The notes under the pieces were generated by a model. The model was not told the origin of the DNA and did not search any database. It saw nothing but the letters and a program-made list of their open reading frames with translations. A stretch of DNA of 64,000 nt from Antennarius striatus (taxonomy: Eukaryota > Chordata > Actinopteri > Lophiiformes > Antennariidae). Position 1 is the first letter of the stretch. Every line of letters begins with the position of its first letter. Location: NCBI RefSeq assembly GCF_040054535.1, contig NC_090780.1, forward strand, positions 16,959,501-17,023,500. The letters are read 5' to 3'. The position numbers were made by a program, and so were the translations under genes. Positions 5,001-53,700 of the stretch are shown here, one piece after another.

Positions 5001-8000
5001 ATGCATTCAGGCCCTGTGGACACAAACGGCTCCCCAAGAAAACGGACGTTGTCGCGGGGAATCAGCGAGGATGAGTCTCTTCGCAGCATCATAAAAGAGG
5101 TACGCAAACAAATGTGCGTTATTGTTTAGCACTTCTTTACAGCAAAAACTAACGTCATATTTTACACCTTTTTGTTAAGCAAACAAAAAACAACAACGTC
5201 TAAATGCGTTATTATGGTGTTACAGACAATTGTGTTAACTGTTTACGACTGAAACCTCGTCAGCAGTCATACTGGTGTTTGTCGAGCCTCGGTTCACTTC
5301 CGTTCTGGGCTAGCTAGTGTGTGAGCTGTGGTGCTAGCCACGGGATGCTAACTGCGCTACTGTCTCCTCGGCAGGCGGAGAGTTCATCCAGGCGGCTGAC
5401 ACGAAGCGACAGCCGGGCAGGCACCCTGAAGCGGAGGAGTGACAGCCAGGTAGGTCCCAGATAGCATCAACAGGAACCGTGAGTGAACGTCTTGAAAGTG
5501 TGGCTGAAGTGTAAGGGTGACATTTAAGGGTAAGGTTAGTGGGAAGTAACGTAGTCAATAACATGGCGTGAATGAGTACAGTAGGGCTATGGTTATGTCG
5601 GGGATTTTGCTGTACGATATGAGGAAAAAAATATAATAACTATAAAATTAGAGATTTTAAGCAGATACAGTGAGTTTTACAGGTGACATGTCGGTTTTTT
5701 TCAAACAATATAGTAGAAAATAATTCCTTGGAAGAAGACCTGGTGGTCCCAGCAGTAATCCAGTGTACAACAGAAACATAGTTTGAGCCTGTTTTCAAGG
5801 TTCTCGTACACTTAATGCACGAGTGTCAAACTCAAGGCCCGTGGGCCAAATGTGGCCCGCAGCATCATTTTACGCTCCCGGGAGAGCATAAAAGGTCAGT
5901 GTCTAAAAATAAATAGGTCAAAAATGTGGTTTGACCAAAAACTAAATTTCCCACAATGCAGTAATCAAGCCCATTTTAACTCTGGCCTAACTTGTGTTTG
6001 ATGACACAATTTGTCTTCTTTCACTTGCATAGTTTGATCCTTGATTGATGGAGTTCTGTGGGTTTCATAACGTGACAAATTGAATGGATTTATGTTATAA
6101 AAAAGCAACAGGCAAACATATTTTTTCTGTGAAACTATAATGTTTGTAATAAATTCAGAGTTGTTTAACATTAAGGAGTAGTTACATTTGTGTTACATTA
6201 CATTGAGTTACATTTAGTTACATTTATTTGTTGCATGTCTTTGAGGACAGCTGCTGTGGTGTTAAATGAATTTGACACCCCTGACATAATATAATAACAA
6301 AACAGTAAAAGAAAGAATCAAATGAAATTTGGGACGCTGTAACAAATGATAATGTTACAGTGTTCTTGCAGGATTTGCAATAGAATAGAAGAGAATGCTT
6401 TTATAGTCATCATACACAAGTGTGCAACGAAATTTTAAATAGAAATAAAGTTCATTGTTATATGAAACCAGTTATCACCCTATCTGTTTGGCTCCTGGAT
6501 CCTGACCAAACAGACTTGTTTCATTGAAACCCTTTGTTATGGCTTAAAATACTGTATAATTTCAGGTTGAGATCAAATAATTCACACCACTTAATATCTC
6601 CCAAAAGAGATTAAAACAAAAACAAAAAAAAGAAATAGTGTGGAAGATGTTTTACTTTTCTCTTTCTTAATTTATCATGCCTGGGGTATATACATTTTTT
6701 TGAAGGGGCAGTGAGTCTATTGTATTTAAATCTAAATGTAAATGTATTTAAATAAGCAATTGCTCTACTAAGTTCTGTGAACCTTTAATTTTCTGTGCCT
6801 AATAATTTTTTTTTAATCAAACTTCATCACATGGGGTGTTTTCAGAACTTAAATATGTTTCCTGCATGATTTAGTCTTTTAGAGAATGTCGTTCGTTCTG
6901 ATAGCTGCACTTTTGTATCACACTGTGTGACTGATTAGATTTTGTTAGTCTAGAATAGGTAAACTACAGCAAGTGCGCCATGTGCAACCTGTTGGGCTTT
7001 GCAATCTGGCCTGCTAAACTTGTTTAAATTATATAACTTTATGAAATAAATGCAGTTGTAAAATAATTTTTACAATAACCCTTGCATATTTATGCTTTGC
7101 TGCCTGTTAAAAGCCAAAACCTTTTATGTAATGGTTTTTACATGTCATTTGTGTTAGTACAAATAAGCACTCAATCCATCTGCTCCTCAGCTGGCCCGTC
7201 TGACACATTTTAGAACTCTGTGTGGCCCACCAGTCAAAATGTTTGCCCACCCCTGATCTACAAGGTTAACTACATGAAATCAACACAAAGCAACGGTTAA
7301 CTGTGAAGAATATTGTGTAAGATTAGATAATGTGAACTCAAATTCAGCCACACAATAACATGAGGGCTTAATTCATTTTTAGAAAATGAATTAACCCTAA
7401 TGTTACAATATGCATTCGGGTCATGTGTTTTACAAATGTGATGTAAAAGTGTAAATTCATGTGAATAACTCATCTATGATTGACTGGTAAGCCCTTTTTA
7501 AATGATTGTCCTTGCAGCAGTCTGATCTGGACCTCTCCATGGGACACCCAGATATGGTGAGCATTTTTGAGTCTTCTGTGAGGTCTGATCAATCACTGAA
7601 ATGATGCAGGTTCCCTTTCATGTGACGGCATTGTCATGTTTCTAGAATAGATGAATCTCTCACTGAGGCCTCTGAGATCTTGCTTAACACGTGCCCACTC
7701 ACTGAGTGACACGTGTTACCCACATTGATTTGTACCTGTTTCTATGATGCAGCTTGAGCTGCAGAGCAGCTATGATGCCGTGGTGCAGGAGCTGCATGGA
7801 CTGGAGATCGAGCGAGAAACTCTGTTGTTCCAGGTGAATGTCCTGCAGGACACCTTGGAGAGCGTGGAGGAGCTGCTGGCTGAGACTCAAGGAGAAGCTA
7901 AACAGGCTAGTTCGGTATGTCAAAATATTTTGTAGTGTCTGTTGTGTTTTTATGGTTATTTTATGATACCCTAAAAAACCAGTGGTACCTTCATTATGCT

Positions 8001-20832: not shown

Positions 20833-22983
20833 ATGAGAGTACTTGTTGTCTTGGTTACTTTGGCCTGCTTTGCCAACACTCAGCACCAAGCACTGATTGA
20901 CTACTTGGAGCGGAGGCTGCTTGCTATTGAGGTAAGACTGACTTCACCTCAGTCCCTCTGAAAGGAAACTTCCAGGGACAGGGCAAAGGCAATTGAATGC
21001 AGATGTGAGTGACTCCTGAGGAAAATGCTTCAAAATGCAGCTCTTTGAAAATTATAGAGATTCTGGGATTGTGTAGAGATTGAAGGTTTCTTGGTGAAAA
21101 AACTAAGATAAAGAAGGACTGAAGTCTTTATAGTTACATTAGAGTTGTTAGAAATAAAATGACAGATGTGCATTTGTGATGATTAACTGAAATTCATAAA
21201 AGCTACATTGTGAAAAATTCAAAAATCATACAAAAGGTATTTTGGTGAGAAAATTTTCCCTGTTCGCATCTAAAACTGTTTAGTTGTAATGTCATCATCA
21301 AGTACAGGTAATTATTTCTCCCACAGAATACAGAACACATTTTAGATCATATTATGGTTATGGAGGCCTCGAGTTTCAAATATAACTGAATGAGCATTAT
21401 CTCAATATTATGGTTTTGTTTGAATGAAATTTGGACAAATTCTGTTCTAATTTTCATGTCAGTCATTCTAAAAGTACCTTAAATAAATCTGAATTCCTAT
21501 GTTTCTTTGTAAACCCCACACTGAGGTTAAAGGTCAAAGTCTGCCACAGAGTCAGCTGGTAGGATTCCTTGTTTTGCCAAAGGATATTTGAGTACAGTGG
21601 AGTCTTGCCTTGGGCCGAACCCAGTCATTTAAAGGATGAATGTCCTACATATTATACTCCCAGTCTATTTACTGAGCCTGAAAATGATATGACTTTTTTA
21701 CATCTCGATCAGCCTTTTTAATTTCTGTTAAAAAAGAAAAGAAATTTCTGTAATCACTGAAGTAGAAAAGGAAAAGAAAGATTGCGTAAAACTCACGCCT
21801 AACTATCTGACGCCATCTTTTTTTAAACACAGGACCGGATCTCTTTGTGGCATGAGCAGACGGCCCGCTACGCCTCAGAGCTGAGGGAGCTGAAGCAGCA
21901 GATGGTTTCCCAGCTGGAGACCTTAGATAAGGAGAAGGAGACGCTGAGAACGAGCCTGGACACCGTGGGGACGAGGGTGGACCGCGTTGAGCGGGAGCTG
22001 GACTACCTGGAAACTCAGAACGGAGTTCAGCCGTGTGTCGATGTGGACGACAAACTGATCGAGCAGCAGGTGACGCTGGTGGAGGAGAAGCAGAAGGCCA
22101 AGTATTTAAAGCTATCAGGTGAGGTTATGATACATTCATCATGACCTGGATGAACCTACACAGACACGCTGTTAGCTTGTTCTTCCTCTCCTCAGACTGC
22201 GGCGACATGATCTCTACCATAAAAGCCATGAAGATCCTGAAGCGAGTCGGGGGACCGAAGGGCATGTGGACCAAAGACCTGGCCGCTCGGGGTTCTGGGA
22301 AGGTCTACATTTTTAATGAAACAGATGAAGACACCGTCCACGTGTTTGCATCTGTGCAAGACTTCACCCGATCGCTGGGCATGGCTCTGTCCAAAAGCGT
22401 GAAGCTGCCGTCGGCCTGGCAAGGAACGGGACACATCGTCTACGACAGTCACGTCTACTATATCAACCAGGATAAAGAGATCACAGTGGTCAAGTACGAC
22501 ATGAAGAGCGGTTCCGTGAAGGACAGCGCAGTGTTCCCAGCTCAGGACCACGTCCCAGTCTTTACCCTATCCCCCAAGACCATGATAGACCTAGCCATGG
22601 ATGAGGAAGGCCTGTGGGTCATTTACGCCACGCAGCAGAACGATAGATACATCTCCTTGGCCAAAATGGCCACCAGCTCGCTGGATATCGAACAAACGTG
22701 GGACACAAACTGCCCCCGAGAAAATGCAGAGGCAGCTTTCGTGATCTGTGGGACTTTGTACGTGGCTTACAACACCCTACAGCCGGGTCGCTCAAGTGTC
22801 CAGTGTGTGTATGATGTCAATGGAATGGTAACCAATGAAGAGGCGCCGCTTATTTATTTCCCCAAGCGTTACGGATCACACTCCAGCCTGAAGTACAACC
22901 CTCACGAGCAGCTGCTGTACGCCTGGGACGATGGCTACCAGATCCTGTACAAGCTCGTCATGAAGAAGAAGCTGGACATTTGA
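20833..22983 (+). CDS. olfml3: Olfactomedin-like protein 3 (390 aa, 3 exons)
   Basis: Exons 20833-20931, 21833-22118 and 22196-22983 sum to 391 codons with stop (human OLFML3 is 406 aa). The protein has a signal peptide (MRVLVVLVTLACFANTQ), a coiled coil at about residues 25-95 (LREL, RVDRVERELDYLETQN), then a C-terminal olfactomedin domain starting at SDCGDMISTIKAMKILKR. Hallmarks are GGPKGMWTKD, CPRENAEAAFVICGTLYV and YAWDDGYQILYKL. An N-glycosylation site FNET sits early in the domain. OLFML3 is a secreted scaffold protein that supports BMP1/chordin interaction and dorsoventral patterning in vertebrates, and is made by vascular and glial cells. It is convergent with cdk2. Which teleost paralogue (a or b) it is cannot be told from one sequence. 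Confidence 0.95.
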
Positions 22984-31375: not shown

Positions 31376-31511
31376 GGATCAATAACAATAATGAATATGA
31401 ATTATAGAGTAGGAATGACAAGGTAGAACAAAGTTAAAAACAAACATAGACTGTTCATTGAGATTCTACGGCAGCGTAGAGCTGCCAGACCAAGAAAATA
31501 AAAACCGGGAC

Positions 31512-31620
31512 GTATCACGTTGTTTCGTGATACGTATCATGTTATTTCATGATAGTATCACGTTATTTCGTGATACGTATCACATTATTTCGTGATATGT
31601 ATCACGTTATTTCGTGATAC
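31512..31620. repeat. Five tandem palindromic hairpin units
   Basis: Units at 31512-31533, 31534-31554, 31555-31576, 31577-31598 and 31599-31620. The consensus stem is GTATCACG with loop TTATTT (or near it) and CGTGATAC. Each can fold alone, and neighbouring units can pair with each other. They are likely binding sites for the element's transposase, by analogy with subterminal repeats of other DNA transposons. Confidence 0.9.
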
Positions 31621-31669
31621 GACTTTTTCAAAGTGGTTTTATTTACTGTCTGCTGGCCATCAGTAAATC

Positions 31670-31942
31670 ATGGCTCCTTTACATGATGCCATTGAATTAT
31701 ATTTCATGCTTGGCTTGAGACATGGTGAGATTTTACAGTTATTGGGCTCCGTGGATGAAATTTATATAAGCATGCGTACCCTAAGACGACATTTGAAAAA
31801 GATGGGGCTATACCGGAGGAAAAACGAGTCGGACCCTCTTGAGGTAGCGTCTTTCCTCATTGATGAGCTGGAGGGACACGGCCGGCTGCATGGATACAAG
31901 CTCCATCATCTCAACATAACATCTTATCACGAAATAACGTGA
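31670..31942 (+). CDS. Truncated integrase-like transposase N-terminus (90 aa) inside the mini-element
   Basis: The frame starts MAPLHDAIELYFMLGL, continues with a helix-turn-helix-like stretch RTLRRHLKKMGLYRRKNE and ends LHGYKLHHLNITSYHEIT. The first ~77 residues resemble the N-terminal domain of fish proteins with an rve integrase core (IELYF.LG....I...L....I.ISIRTLRR...K.GLYRRK... and GSGQLHGYRWMH as I recall them). The catalytic DDE domain is absent: after LHGY the frame runs straight into the right terminal repeat. Expression is unknown; if made, it could bind the element ends without cutting. Confidence 0.6.
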   Translation: MAPLHDAIELYFMLGLRHGEILQLLGSVDEIYISMRTLRRHLKKMGLYRRKNESDPLEVASFLIDELEGHGRLHGYKLHHLNITSYHEIT

Positions 31943-32927
31943 TACGTCCTGGTTTTTATTTTCTTGGTCTGGCAGCTCTACGCTTCCGTAAGATTCAGTT
32001 GAGAACTGTAAAAACTCAAAAAAATAGAAGTGAAAAGCTTTTTCTCATCTTGTAAACTATTGAAAAACATACAGTACTTCATACATAGTTTGAAGTATCG
32101 AACTAATCACAATCACATCATATAGCCTCTCAGTTTCCTTTCTGATTGAAAAAAAAACACTGCTAGAGTTAATTTCATCAATCAGACCTGTTTTCCATTA
32201 TTATTATACAGTATTACACTGCACTTCAAAAATTAACTGCACCTGAGACTTTGAATGATGACAGTAAATGTATATTTGCAATTGAATACATTACCACTAA
32301 CATAACCCTAAACTTCACTTTTCAAAACATATTTAGGGTGGCAGTTTCATATGAATGAAATTATTTTCTGATTTGTGAATGTTAAATTTTTTTGTCTTAG
32401 AGAAATGTGGAATTATTTATTATTTCACATTAAACCACAAAAATACAATCAGATTCATGCATTCTGTGACATAGTCCCAAAGTTACTAAATCCAGGAGCA
32501 ATTCTGTAAAATTCCCAATGTTTTTCTTTTAATTTTCAATGTTTCAAAAATGACAAAGGACTGAGTTCCGTGATAATTCTGGAATTTAAAAAAATTAAGA
32601 CATACTAGATGGTACTAACACATTGAGAAGCTCATGATCAACTGTTAATTGTTGTTTGTTGCTCAGATGGGAAAGAATTTACCGTATTTCCCCCGGAACT
32701 GTTCTGTTAGCACATGAGGGGTCACACAAAGTACAGTTAATGGTCGCACAGGCTTGAGACAACTGCACAGGGAAAACCACCATTAGGCTCAGTTCATAAC
32801 CTATTCTCTGATGACTTCATTGTTATTTATGTTTTCCACATTGTTGATGGTTTTAATTGGTAAAATAAGTATTTTTTTTGTTTTTATCTTACTTATTTTT
32901 ACTTGTATTATTCATTTGTTCATCTTC

Positions 32928-36313: not shown

Positions 36314-39300
36314 ACGCACACGCACACGCACACGCACAGGCACAAAATAGCTGGGAGAAAACCAAGCGAGCCAGTTGTCTGGGTTCCAGGTTCCTCTCAC
36401 TAGGATTACTGATGCTGCAGCTCAGCTGAGAGTCACATGAAAAGGATTGGGGGGGATTTCAGGTCGTGTGACTCCCAGCGCCTAGAACACAGACACTCCT
36501 CACCCCTCCTCACCCCTCCTCACTACCACCAATGCTAACCTGCCGGCATTTACGTAAGCATCTCGAACATTATGTGCAAAATCTCCTCAAACATCATCCA
36601 GAAATTGCCGGTATATCTATTATAATTATAGAATATCACTCAACTTATATGTAACAAACAAACATGATCTACACGAATAAGCCTCTCTTCCTGAAGAGTC
36701 TTAATCTTCTGTACAGAGCCAAAAAGTAAATTTACCCGTTACCGGTCATGGAACTCACGTATGTACCCGGTGTGGAAGGATGGGGACCTGAGATTCAGGA
36801 ACTGTTGGTCTGGTGAGGCTCTCTCCTCTGTTTCTAAAAACATTAACAATATGGAACTCTCTCTGCCAGTCAATATAAAGGTGTTAAACTGTCTAATCTC
36901 CTTCGTAGGTGGTGAAGTAACATTTGATCTGAAAAATGACGGCCCAACTCTGACTGGAGCAAGAGCGACCTTCTCTATTAATCTCAACTTCCCTCCAAAC
37001 CAGACGGTGCGCTCTGATGGGCAGGTGGTCTGGGCTCGGAACTGCACGATTAATGGTGAGATGACATTCTCAGTGAAGCCGCACTAACTTTGGTTCTTTT
37101 AACTAGTACTTTTTATTGTCTGATCTACAGAATTATAGTTATGAATGTGTCAATTATAGATGGAATTTGTCATATTTTCCAGGTCAGCAGTATCAGGAGG
37201 GTCAGGCTGTGTATCCCGACCAGGACTCCATGCAGACTGGAGTTTTCCCTGATGGCACACCGTTCACCAGAACCCAGAATAGGAAAAGCCGTTACGTGTT
37301 TGTGTGGAAGACATGGGGTAAGGAATTTCATTTCATAATAACCTGTGCCTATGTTTAGCTTTTATCAGTTCTGCGGTGGTTTGATGGTGCTACAGCTAAG
37401 GTTACTGATTATGAGAACAGAAGAAGTCACAGTGACATAGACAGAAAATCATCAGTGAGTACAAATGACTCGCTGAACAGACATGAACACAAAGAACAGA
37501 CTTTCTCCCCTGGAGCCAGGGAAGATAAAGTTTCACACAGGCTGTGATGATGCCATGGTGATGTTGCTTTACTAGGAACATCCTCATTGCCAAGTGGCTT
37601 GACTCTGGAACCCCAATCATGTGCAATCACGTGTTTATTATCAGCTGTTAATGAGTTATCAACAAAAAATTTTGCATTACAGTGGATCCAGATGTATTTT
37701 TTTCTTTTTCCTCTTTGGTTTTGACTTTACAAAACCTTTTACTTTCACCACAGATACATGGAATCCTTTTAGTTTTTACCGCACTTTTCCAAATACACAC
37801 AATTTTGCGGCTTTTTTCTTCCACAGCAAGACAAAAACAGTACCATCTCATGCACTAGGTGATGAAAGTGACTCCTGGAGAATCAAGAATGCAAGAACGA
37901 TATAATTTTGTAGTGATTATTGGACCACTCTAAGGAATCACGATGTTCCTCCTCTGAAGGGCGTTACTGGCAGGTGGCGGGTGGACCGTCCTCCTCCCTC
38001 TCTATCAGCACAGATGAAGTCTCTCTGGGCTCCTACAGCATGGAGGTTGTCATCTATCACTGCCGTGGCAAGAATAAATTTATCCCTCTCGGCTATGCCT
38101 CCACAGTCTTCGCCATTACAGGTAAACTATGTCACGGAGTCTACCCAAACTTGTACAAAATGGTCGTGCAGCAGTTTAGATTTCAATTCCTCATATTAAC
38201 AGCTTTGCATCTTTTCTCCCTTCAGACCAGGTCCCCTTCACCTTATCACTTTCCCAAGTCAATGATATCAACCAGAATGACCAGAGCTTCATCCAGAACC
38301 GAGCCATCGCTTTTAATGTGAAGCTACATGATCCCAGCCAATACCTCAACAACGCTGACATCAGCTTCAGCTGGGACTTTGGTGACAGTACTGGTACTCT
38401 TATTTCCAGAGACCTCACTGTCACACACACATACCTCACCGTTGGGAACTACAAACCCCAGGTGGTCCTCATGGCAAGCATACCCAACGGATGTGGAAAC
38501 CCCACTGCTGGTGAGACTTTAGAGCTTTACATGGTCTTTTTCATCTTTCATGTCAGAAAACAGTTTTTGCTCAGATGCTTTCCACTGTTTTTTCCAGTCG
38601 TTCCTGCTTCCGCCGCTCCAGCTGTGGTCGTGATAGACTCCACCGCCACACCAGCCGGAGCAGACACCAACACAGAAGATGGAGAAACAATCATTGACAC
38701 GGACACTGAGGTAGTAGAGGTTGCTTCAGTAGCACCAGCAGGAGTCGATACAGCTGTTGTTCCAGAGGAACAAAATCCTATTGCTCCAGAGGGAGATACT
38801 GCTACGGACGGAGATGCAGATGCTGCAGCAGCAGGTGAGGGGGATGCTGCTACCGAGGAAGCAGATGCTGAAGCAGCAGCAGGTGAGGAGGACACTGTGA
38901 CTGAGGGTGCAGATGCTGCAGCAGCAGGTGAAGAAGACACTGCTACTGAGGATGCAGATGCTGCAGCAGCAGGTGAAGAAGACACTGCTACTGAGGTTGC
39001 AGATGCTGCAGCAGCAGGTGAGGAGGACACTGCCAGTGATGAAGCAGATGCTGAAGCAGCAGCAGCAGGTGAAGAGGAAGCGGCGGCCTCTGTTGCACCT
39101 CCAGCTGAAGAGGAGGCAGATGATGCCACCGTAGCTGATGGAGATGAAACTGCAGTGGAGACAGATCCAGCTGAAGAAAATGTCCCCGTGGTTGATGCTA
39201 CAGCCTCAGTTGCCCCGGTTGCGGAGGGAGATGAAGCTGCAGCTGAGGTTGCCGAAAACACCACTGATGCTCCTGGAGCAGCTGCAGAGGAAGAGGCTGA

Positions 39301-41220
39301 TGCTGATGCTGCAGGAGAAGTTGTCCAAGTTGTAACAGAGCCTCCTGTTGATAATGCTGTAGCACTGGCTATTACTGAGACCACAGCTGTAGATGAAGCA
39401 GCACCAGCTGATCCTGAGGCTGAAGCACAGGCAGCCGAAAATGAAGCAGCAGCTACTGCAGCTCCTGCAGGTGAGGATTTACTGCCAGCTGCAATAAGCT
39501 TATGTAAAAACAAAAGATGATTACTGTTATAAGGGCATGATGATAATATACACATATATATTACAATATGTTTTTAAATTGTCACCTACAACCAGCAGGT
39601 GATGAAGAAGCTATTCCAGCTGAAGGTGAAACAGAGGTGGAAACAGATCCAGCAGAGGTTCCTGTCATTGTGGTGAAAAGACAAGCCCCAGAGCTGACAG
39701 CTGACTGCATGGTCTACCGCTACGGCTCCCTCGCCACCTCAGTAGAAGTTATTCGTAAGTTAATGCAGCTTTTATTATCATAGCAGTTTAAACTGTTGGG
39801 GTTTTTTTGCTTCTTTTGTAAAGCTTGATGATTCAGTAGTGGGAAATCTCTCTGTGTCTCTTTCAATCCTTCAGAGGGCATTGAGAGTGTAGAGATTGTA
39901 GAAGTGTCCAACATCGTGTCAGTGGCGACTGAGTTGGATCAGAATGCTGTGGATGTGACTATTACCTGTCAGGGAAGGTGAGCAGTAACATTCAGGTAGC
40001 ATCTATTATTACATTAATGTTGTGGTGCTGTCATTAATATTCTGTGAGGTAGCATTGTAGCGTAGATTACAGATGACATAATTAATGCATAATTACCTGA
40101 TTGTTATGTATTTATTTTGTATGTAGGTGACAGAAACTATGATATTGCTCATTATGCATCATACTTCTAAAGGAAACATTATGACTAGAACATAGACTTA
40201 TGATGTTCTTCATGTAACCATGTCTGTTGTTCCATATTTCAGTTTGCCAAGCGAGGTCTGCACAGTAATTTCAGATGCTGACTGTATCACACCGATGGAA
40301 ACAGTCTGTAATGCAGCAACACCCTCGCCAGACTGTCAGATGATCCTTCGGCAGTTCTTTAATGACTCTGGAGTGTTTTGCCTTAATGTCTCTTTGACCA
40401 ATGATGTCAGTTTTGCTGTGACAAGCGCAAGAGTCAGTGTAACAGTAGGTGGGTGGAAGAAAATAAGCTAATATGATGAACTTAATCCATTCAATCTGCC
40501 CTCATTTGTAAAATGTTCTTAATTTCCAGCCTCCAGCGGCTCCCCAGCTGGAACTGCAGCCATAATCCTGGGTGTCATGTTTCTCAGCTGCGTTATTTGT
40601 TGTATTGGGCTGATGTACAAGTGAGTACCTCTTCTAATAATCTAATTTACCAAAATTATATTGAAAATTTTAAATGGTAATTTACACATTAATTATACTA
40701 ACTTGTTAATTGTGGCTTCAATGTATGAAATGTTCTCCTAACCTTTTTTCTTTTCAATAAAAATGTTTTTAGATTTTTAAATTGCTGGAAAATAAAGTCA
40801 GATAAAAATGAAACCTACTTATTAAACTATGTCAAACAAACAACAGCATCTTAGATAATGAATGTGATCTTTCACCAATTATGAAGTATTTCCTTAAAAA
40901 ATCTGCAACAAACTTTTAATAGTTTAATTTGTTGGTGACATTTTGGCCTTTATTTGATGCCATACAGTGTATCTGCTCATGCATTCCAATGAGGAACATC
41001 CCATTCGCAGTTTAACTTTGTCGCTTGCCTCGTCAGTTGTCTCACCTGTTGCATGTTTCCCAACAGGAGGCTTAAGCAGTACCGGCCACTGAGTGAAGAC
41101 ACTGATGACACCAATGGAGGCAGGTCAGCTGTAACCTCGGTGCCTTTGTTGTTGTGGAATCTGCTGAGCCGACAGTCACCAGGAGAGAGTCGACCATTGC
41201 TTCAGGGAAGGATTGTGTGA
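35522..41220 (+). CDS. pmel: Premelanosome protein (PMEL/silver, 821 aa, 12 exons)
   Basis: Exons 35522-35579, 36717-36812, 36909-37055, 37183-37317, 37960-38121, 38226-38510, 38598-39470, 39599-39754, 39875-39977, 40243-40448, 40530-40620, 41067-41220. PMEL forms the amyloid fibrils of melanosomes on which melanin is laid down. Seen domains: signal peptide [20 protein letters not shown]-terminal region and core amyloid segment ([30 protein letters not shown]); PKD domain ([17 protein letters not shown]); a long repeat domain in exon 7; proprotein cleavage site at VVKRQ; Cys-rich kringle-like domain with CLNVSLTND; one membrane helix ([19 protein letters not shown]); and a cytoplasmic dileucine sorting signal ESRPLLQ near the end. 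The repeat domain is acidic (Ala/Glu/Asp), unlike the Pro/Thr/Ser repeats of human PMEL. Divergent with cdk2, as in human. Confidence 0.96.
36275..36345. repeat. (CA)n/(CGCACA)n microsatellite in pmel intron 1
   Basis: CACA dinucleotides followed by about six CGCACA hexamers. Confidence 0.95.
38815..39090 (+). repeat. Coding minisatellite in pmel exon 7
   Basis: Six consecutive units of 15-17 codons of the form [15 protein letters not shown]. Units 3 and 4 are almost identical at the DNA level (45 bp period), showing recent tandem duplication. The reading frame is kept because every unit is a multiple of three. Confidence 0.92.
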
Positions 41221-50799: not shown

Positions 50800-53700
50800 A
50801 TGAGCCACCCAATGTACACATCCACCTCCTACAGGCGCAACTTTGGAAGCCCCCACCCCATCTCCATGTCCTCTTACTCCCATGTGTCCTCCCGTATGCC
50901 TGCTTCTGGAGGACGCTACATGCGTTCTGTGTCACCTGGGGTTACAACTCGCTCCACCAGCTACCAACAGCAGCGATCCCGCTCCAGCGCCCAGGCCCCT
51001 CGCCTCAGCTATGATAAGGTCGACTTCACCATGGCTGAAGCCATCAACCAGGAGTTTCTCACCACCCGGAGCAACGAGAAAGCTGAGTTGCAAGAGCTCA
51101 ATGATCGCTTTGCCAGCTTCATCGAGAAGGTGCGCTACCTGGAGCAGCAGAACAGCGCTCTAACTCAGGAGCTCAGCCAGTACAAGGGCCAGCAGCAGCA
51201 TGGGCAGCCCACCCGCGCCACGGACATCTTCCAGGAGGAGCTTAGGGAGTTGCGGCGCCAAATGGATGGCATTGGAAAGGAGAGGGACCAGTACCTCCTG
51301 GAGAGGGATAACCTGGCTGACGACCTGGCCCTACTCAAGCAGAGGTAGGTTTGTGATCTTGTTCAGCCATGATGAACGATAATAACATTAGTGGCTATAG
51401 AAAATGTGCCAAAAATCTCAACAACTGTTTTCTCTGCTTCCTCTCCATTCCAAGACTTCATTTTGTGGGATTGTCTGTATTAGAGCATGAGCATGAGGGG
51501 TCCTGATGCCACCATCACATCATTCCTTGACCCTGTTGTAGCACATGGGTTACATTCAGCACAGAGAAAGGACAAAGTCCCTGGGCTCCACTTGAGTCTA
51601 GTAATGATGATGGTGTAGGGCGTGGCACATGTGGGCACCAGAGGAACGACAACGTGATGCAGCACCTGAACATGAGCTGTGTCTGGGTAGGACAAAAAAA
51701 ATGAATTTATGCCAAGATTAAATTAAAAAGGAAAGATCATAGTCATATTGTAAATATTTCCTTAAAGTACTGTATGTCAGTTTTCAAATTGAGAAACTTT
51801 TGTTTAATGAATACAAATATAAAAAAAATTGTAGATCCTCCATATTTATGTGTTAAAGATATTATATTCCACATGTTGCTCAATGCACACAGTACACCTG
51901 TAGGTTGTGCCAGAGATGCTTTTGTGAGGAGTCTTAACACTACTTATATGAAGTATGCAATAAATGTGGATTTCAAATTTTGTTCACCACCTTTTTCTTA
52001 GTAAAAGGTGAAGAAGTTGCGATGATTGATTTTGAAGTAATCCAAAATTATTATTCCAATGGATTATATATCAAAACCTCACTGACTACATTTAAAAAAA
52101 TAATTTGATCCTATCTCCTATAAAATATTTCCTGGAATAAACAAATCCCATAGCATACATATATAGTTATAGTGATGGTTATATTTATAGTTATAGTTAC
52201 AGTAATGCATATTATGCATGTTGCATCATGACATGAAAGGGAAAGGGGGACGATGGAGGATGTAGGGTGGGGCAGACTTAGGAGGACGGGGTGGGAGGGA
52301 GGAGAGAGAGGGAGGGGGCGGGGAGAGAGAGAGAGAGAGAGAGAGGAAATGAGTGTAAAGGAAAAGGGGCTGGATATCAGGTGTAGTGAGAATAGCGTCA
52401 GGGAAAATCAATGTGACTCATTGACTCCATTAGATGTGTTTTCAATGTCCCTCTGTGCCGATGGGATGGTGCCAGAGACCCCATTAGGACAGAAGGACCC
52501 CTGTAACACAACATGAATTAAAAATGAGGAAGCAGGACCCACGATGTGATGCTTTTCAATCTGCTTTATGTCCAGACTGTCTGACTGGACAGATGGAACC
52601 GCTTTCAAATCCCCATTCAGACATTGACTGCAGACAGCCCATCAATCAAAAGGAGCTGGGCAAGAATTAGCAATATTATGTATGGCACACTATAATACTG
52701 TGCTGACTCATCATAAGGACTCATAAATTCTTACTTTGCTAAAGCACTATCTAATATACTCTATTTTAATTTCATTCTGCAGGAGTACCGTTTTTACGGA
52801 AACAGACCAAAAATCTATTTGATAAAAGCAAATCCCACAGTCGATATTTTACATTGACTAGTGAATATTTTGCATTATCTGTATTCCAGTTTTCATTTCC
52901 TCATTTTATATTAGTCCGGTCAATACTGAAATGACCATGTTAAATCTTTAAAGAGATAGTAAGTGTGTGTGCATAACCCCTCTGTGTGTACAATGACCTT
53001 ATTGAACTACACAGAAACCACATTAGCTGAAAGGAGCAGCTGCTGATGCCACTAGGAAAACCTCCAAATGCTTTTACAGGACAGTGAACTAATAAATTGA
53101 TTTAAAGGGCTTTTTGCCAGCTGATGCCCTGGAGTGACCTCTCCTTTGCTTAAAAGGGGATTGCTTGTAGCCTTGAGCTAATTTGTGCATCACCTCAAAT
53201 CTTTGCCTCTGATCTACAGGTTGGAGGAAGAAGCCCAGAAGAGGGCAGATGCTGAGAATAACCTCCTTGCCTTCCGCAAGGTAACTCTTGCCTGACTGGA
53301 CCATGATTAGTTACATTGTCCTCAGGCTTAACAGGTCAAACCAGACACCTTGTTACGTCTTCACAATCATTTGATAGTAATATGACAGGAACAGAATCTG
53401 GAGTTGACACTTAGAATATTTTCTATATAGAAAATATTTTTGTCACATCATAACTAAATATAATTCTATAATATACTTAAGTGTGTTTTACAGCTTCAAG
53501 AATTCCAAATAACACAGCGATATGCAAAATTATCTCTGAATTCCTAGTGCATTTTAATCTCACAAGTAAGTTTGAACTCAACTACCTGAACTAAGCTCAC
53601 GATATAGTGATGTTTTACATATTATACGTATATTATATATTTATTACCATAATTATGTGAAACTATGTTTGCCTCTCAAACAAACCAGGATGTTGATGAT

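Follow-up and report, generated by a model that had tools for sequence, protein, structure and literature searches.

The window, a 64,000-nucleotide stretch of contig NC_090780.1 from Antennarius striatus, contains a 524 bp element at 31467–31990, which reads TACGG... at its left end and ...CCGTA at its right end. Three likely host exons lie elsewhere on the + strand of the window and encode an olfactomedin-like domain (22141–22983), a PKD domain (38318–39520) and an intermediate filament head with the start of the rod (50800–51348). The main features of the element are collected in Table 1. The first-pass annotation had reported a perfect 6 bp target duplication, inverted ends of 66 bp with three differences and an intact 90-codon frame that has lost the catalytic core and runs into the right end, and all of these agree with the sequence.

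Table 1. Features of the 524 bp element and of its target site, in window coordinates
Feature	Position	Strand	Remarks
Target duplication AGATTC, left copy	31461–31466		Exact match to 31991–31996
Left terminal inverted repeat, begins TACGG	31467–31532	+	95% complementary to 31925–31990
Five 20 bp palindromic units, TATCACGTTATTTCGTGATA and variants	31513–31619	+	Spacing 21–22 bp; upstream of the 90-codon frame
90-codon frame	31670–31942	+	82 transposase N-terminus codons (31670–31915), then 8 codons and stop
Deletion junction, CAAC match	31912–31915	+	Joins parent positions about 535 and 5901
Right terminal inverted repeat, holds the single right-hand palindromic unit	31925–31990	−	
Target duplication AGATTC, right copy	31991–31996		Exact match to 31461–31466

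The two inverted arms are 66 nt each and differ at three positions. Their sixth bases are mismatched, with a C on the left and an A on the right. The ends of a full-length member of the family (L040, C2:9505271–9511256) show the same mismatch, which is therefore probably characteristic of the family and not a result of decay or age. The core has been lost by an internal deletion after the 82 transposase codons, and the last eight codons and the stop of the frame were supplied by the parent's right-hand part. Of the DNA-binding N-terminus that had been proposed for the short protein, the 82 N-terminal codons are indeed kept, while the assignment itself is less firm: helix-turn-helix matches for the transposase N-terminus score below the Pfam cut-off, and the structure model of the short protein is of low confidence (mean pLDDT 47.5), which makes a fold comparison uninformative. 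The label 'DNA-binding-type' is thus best regarded as plausible.

The 20-base palindromic unit has 11 matches in the window over both strands, against 0.10 expected from shuffles. These fall at six places, all within the element, five of them between the left end and the frame and one in the right end. We infer from this position, from the spacing of about two helical turns and from the presence of units at both ends that the arrays are putative transposase-binding sites. The number of units per element varies widely: with a strict pattern, counts across L001–L079 range from 0 to 20 on the left and from 0 to 10 on the right, where units were counted in the last 260 bp only for elements longer than 700 bp.

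The genome (548 Mb in 42 contigs) was searched for further copies. A 25-base end pattern allowing up to two mismatches gave 165 matches, 83 forward and 82 reverse, and the reversed pattern used as a control gave none in the same search. Both ends could be located for 56 distinct elements. Perfect 6 bp duplications flank 46 of these 56 (40 of 50 short and all six long elements); among the remaining short elements, three of 50 match at five of the six duplication bases and seven of 50 are without a duplication. The TACGG..CCGTA termini of the window copy recur in 45 of the 56. The short elements measure 459–1148 bp, with a median of 758.5 (n = 50). The nearest copies, L009 and L016, differ from the window copy at two of 286 shared sites, which supports recent movement of the short-element family, as had been proposed.

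Two variants of the end sequence are found, and two unit variants tend to accompany them. The window copy and L040 combine CAGACC with TATCACGTTATT units, and L039 and L041–L043 combine CACACC with TATCTCGGAATT units, which suggests two lineages. Mosaics with one end of each variant also occur among the matches listed (for example C3:20518725/20519565).

Full-length copies with window-type ends and an integrase core were found at five loci (L039–L043). These elements are 5986–6187 bp long and are flanked by perfect 6 bp duplications. Adjoining the left end lies a transposase gene whose first exon gives the N-terminus of the short protein, followed by the integrase core. The Pfam domain rva_4, which is rve-like, matches with 89.9 bits in L039 and 84.1 bits in L040 (cut-off 26), and the earlier claim of an IS3EU parentage with an rve-type integrase is thereby upheld. 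The core is found at all five loci, with one stop in that of L043. A genome-wide search with rva_4 gave 32 matches, some of which belong to other families. The parent transposase also has a match to the IS481 family that is weak and below the cut-off. Its putative catalytic triad consists of Asp132, Asp191 and Glu231, the last of which was read by eye from the sequence. The first exon ends at a GTAAAC donor and the open frame resumes about 670 bp further on after a TAG acceptor, so the gene is probably spliced; no Pfam domain was found in the second exon.

On the opposite strand, L039 (3682–5685, −), L041 and L042 each contain a frame of 668 residues. HECT matches were scored against the Pfam cut-off (23.9) in two elements: the frame of L039 reaches 32.7 bits, and the HECT protein of L040 is interrupted yet still reaches 25.7 bits. 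A His-Thr-Cys motif is present near the C-terminus of the L039 protein. The frame of this protein is also interrupted in L043, L052 and L054. A literature search found no paper linking HECT with IS3EU; Repbase entries were outside its reach, so this gene may already be described there. It is the more unusual feature of the full-length elements and is worth a separate study.

L039–L043 represent the likely source type of the window element. In particular, L040 shares with it the end variant CAGACC, the main repeat unit and the right-hand sequence beside the join. With L039 as the parent reference, left-hand alignments of short elements stop at parent position 534–535 (type I) or 660–661 (type II), the sole exception being L050, which ends at 640. 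Where the right parts reach unique sequence they begin at 5902–5907. The short copies therefore appear to trace to two internal deletions. Several copies were assigned by junction or by the presence of a core: L037 (C1:23458125, the same locus as L044) and L051 are of type II by their junctions and the lack of a core match, L076 and L080 are of type I, and L068 is core-bearing by its core match.

The window copy is the simplest form of type I. Its left part, ending in ...CTCAAC, is joined at CAAC to the right part ACAACATAACATCTTATC as found in L040, and this junction occurs in five copies (L001, L009, L011, L034 and L090). In most other type I copies (for example in L002) an ATTC-rich filler is flanked on either side by TCAACATAACAT or a closely similar sequence. 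The filler looks like a short retroposed tail that was inserted with a target duplication. The junction form of the window copy may accordingly be either ancestral or the product of a precise loss between the TCAACATAACAT repeats.

Taken together, the window element is very probably a young non-autonomous IS3EU element and an ordinary leftover of a deletion. An L040-type element of about 6 kb, with an rve-like transposase gene adjoining its left end and a HECT-domain gene on the opposite strand, would have been shortened by about 5.37 kb through a deletion from one CAAC match to another, presumably in a single event. What remained would be both ends, the palindromic arrays and 82 codons from the start of the transposase gene. 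This shortened element would then have been mobilised in trans through its ends by the transposase of full-length copies, giving rise to the 6 bp duplications. The 90-codon frame would be open because the copy is young and because the deletion happened to leave it open.

A variant of this explanation is that the left 450 bp are kept for cis-acting sequence such as binding sites or a promoter, with the frame as a passenger. We consider this possible but not likely. Both deletion classes keep about 535–660 bp on the left against about 185 bp on the right (parent coordinates), as it would predict, but two founding deletions are few, and the asymmetry may be due to chance. Moreover, in two short elements with paired ends (376 and 364 bp) the match is confined to codons 51–88 and 42–88, respectively (search coordinates), although these elements could be products of later deletions.

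The alternative raised by the first-pass annotation is that the 90-residue protein acts as a competitor or repressor comparable to that of the KP element of Drosophila: it would bind the repeat units in the ends without cutting and lower the transposition of the family. The layout is the same as in KP and EP elements, where an N-terminal DNA-binding domain is kept after internal deletion (PMC11067887). Five palindromic units just upstream of the frame and the weak helix-turn-helix matches would also fit such a role, the latter with the reservation that they are below the cut-off. Used as a query against the genome, the short protein yielded 124 matches, of which 29 second pieces and seven distant-family rows were left out; the 88 entered correspond to 84 loci, nine core-bearing and 75 core-less. 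According to the search listing, 32 of the core-less loci are open over codons 1 to about 82, 17 carry a shared 4 bp deletion and 26 are broken or partial. The figure of 32 is generous, as it counts L004, which has a 1 bp deletion close to codon 8, L011 and L034, which are without the ATG, and L051, whose 5' part is damaged.

Of the 84 loci, 76 were aligned, namely 49 of type I, 18 of type II and nine with a core. A reading frame that runs from the ATG to codon 82 free of stops and frameshifts is retained in 26 of the 67 core-less copies (23 of 49 type I and three of 18 type II), a fair share that a repressor could account for, and is lost in the other 41. Free of in-frame deletions as well are 17 of these 23 and two of these three. 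Among the five copies found with the window junction, the whole frame from ATG to stop is present only in L001 and L009; L011 and L034 have lost the ATG and L090 has a frameshifting deletion of 19 bp.

A 4 bp deletion at codon 59 shifts the frame after codon 58 in 19 of the 67 core-less copies and speaks against a kept protein, as do the further copies broken in other ways. Its carriers are 17 type I copies (L008, L059–L067, L069–L071, L074, L075, L086 and L087), two of type II (L072 and L073) and, in addition, the core-bearing L068. The occurrence of this deletion in three classes of copies suggests that copies have exchanged sequence by gene conversion or that the deletion arose more than once. 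Some TATCTCGGAATT units are present in 13 of the 15 listed type I copies that carry it.

Altogether, 22 distinct indel events are found in types I and II, five in frame and 17 frameshifting, and in-frame events are not in excess of the third that chance would give (P = 0.37). L051 and L080, the 5' parts of which align badly, were excluded from these counts and from the substitution tests quoted below. In-frame deletions of 15, 12 and 6 bp, in five, one and four copies, respectively, all hit codons 33–40 (L034 carries a 15 bp deletion and L053 a 6 bp deletion). They remove parts of the stretch where the recognition helix would be expected, which again argues against a repressor. Because the 15 and 6 bp deletions are common to several copies, it seems that copies without this stretch still multiplied or passed the deletion on.

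Substitutions were compared with a null that keeps mutation types. No constraint is seen for type II singletons (51 N, 14 S and 4 stops, against 48.1, 17.7 and 3.3 expected) or for shared type I variants (14 N and 5 S, against 13.5 N plus stop and 5.5 S expected). All type I singletons together show a silent lean (36 N and 22 S, against 41.8 N plus stop and 16.2 S expected; P = 0.055), with no premature stops where 2.5 are expected. Without the 4 bp class the numbers are 29 N and 22 S, against 36.3 N plus stop and 14.7 S expected (P = 0.018), and a smaller first set of type I singletons had the same lean (P = 0.004). This lean, in part of the type I copies, is in favour of a repressor. When it was split post hoc, with several tests run, it was located in indel-bearing type I copies (10 N and 12 S; P = 0.003) and in type I variants that are also present in other groups (8 N and 12 S; P = 0.011). 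The 18 intact type I copies are near neutral and show no constraint in their singletons (19 N and 10 S, against 20.5 and 8.5 expected; P = 0.33), and strictly private type I variants show no lean (21 N and 10 S; P = 0.26). Selection on the short protein should give the opposite split, and exchange with other copies is thus the likelier source of the silent lean. The first exon of the transposase in the five young full-length copies is itself without significant constraint (15 N, 8 S and 1 stop; P = 0.20), and the power of these tests is therefore low at this copy age.

A short protein kept as a competitor or repressor is therefore improbable. Random breakage of the frame, which the first-pass annotation had named as a refuting result, is for the most part what the copies show, although they are too young for a strong test. 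Since many sister copies lack the N-terminal part, an ordinary deletion leftover remains the preferred reading. More far-reaching is the idea of a self-regulating fish IS3EU lineage, in which the transposase N-terminus would bind the units upstream of its own gene, the short copies would multiply decoy units and be partly KP-like repressors, and the full-length form would carry a HECT-type ubiquitin-ligase gene; we give it little credence. Inverted repeats that arose by chance, or a decayed element from a different superfamily, can be rejected with near certainty, as the genome holds 165 ends against none in the control, 46 of 56 elements with perfect 6 bp duplications and parents that share the ends of the window element and encode an rva_4 transposase.

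The locus thus offers a clear example of non-autonomous IS3EU elements that occur together with full-length relatives in a single genome, and suggests that a family of short copies can descend from a single deletion at a microhomology. It also illustrates that, where a short element is young, the openness of a transposase-derived frame says little about function unless sister copies have retained the frame.

IS3EU elements are described as having TA..TA termini and usually 6 bp duplications (PMC10045372), and for the TET-bearing fungal members ends of the form TAYGG..CCRTA and inverted repeats longer than 30 bp are given (PMC12730594). The window copy conforms to this IS3EU/GingerRoot pattern in its TACGG..CCGTA termini, its AGATTC duplication and its 66 bp inverted repeats, and its full-length parents do so in their rve-like transposase. 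It differs in being without a catalytic core. In the TET-bearing fungal elements an alpha-kinase gene is further described as running opposite to the transposase gene (PMC12730594); in place of the alpha-kinase or TET/JBP genes of that account, the parents found here carry a HECT gene.

The transposase of KP and EP, which are P elements, is unrelated to that of the family of the window element. The likeness is one of architecture: like KP and EP, which are described as retaining the N-terminal DNA-binding domain after an internal deletion (PMC11067887), the window copy has been shortened internally and still encodes part of the transposase N-terminus. That paper reports repression for KP, and its authors infer it for EP, whereas the sequences of the window family give no clear sign of a kept protein.

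A literature search on truncated transposases and repressors together with MITEs found no paper. MITEs are short, multi-copy elements that share their ends with an autonomous parent and are mobilised in trans. The window family differs from them in its fairly long copies (459–1148 bp), its coding remnant and its repeat arrays of variable length, and resembles them in being short and multi-copy and in sharing its ends with full-length parents.
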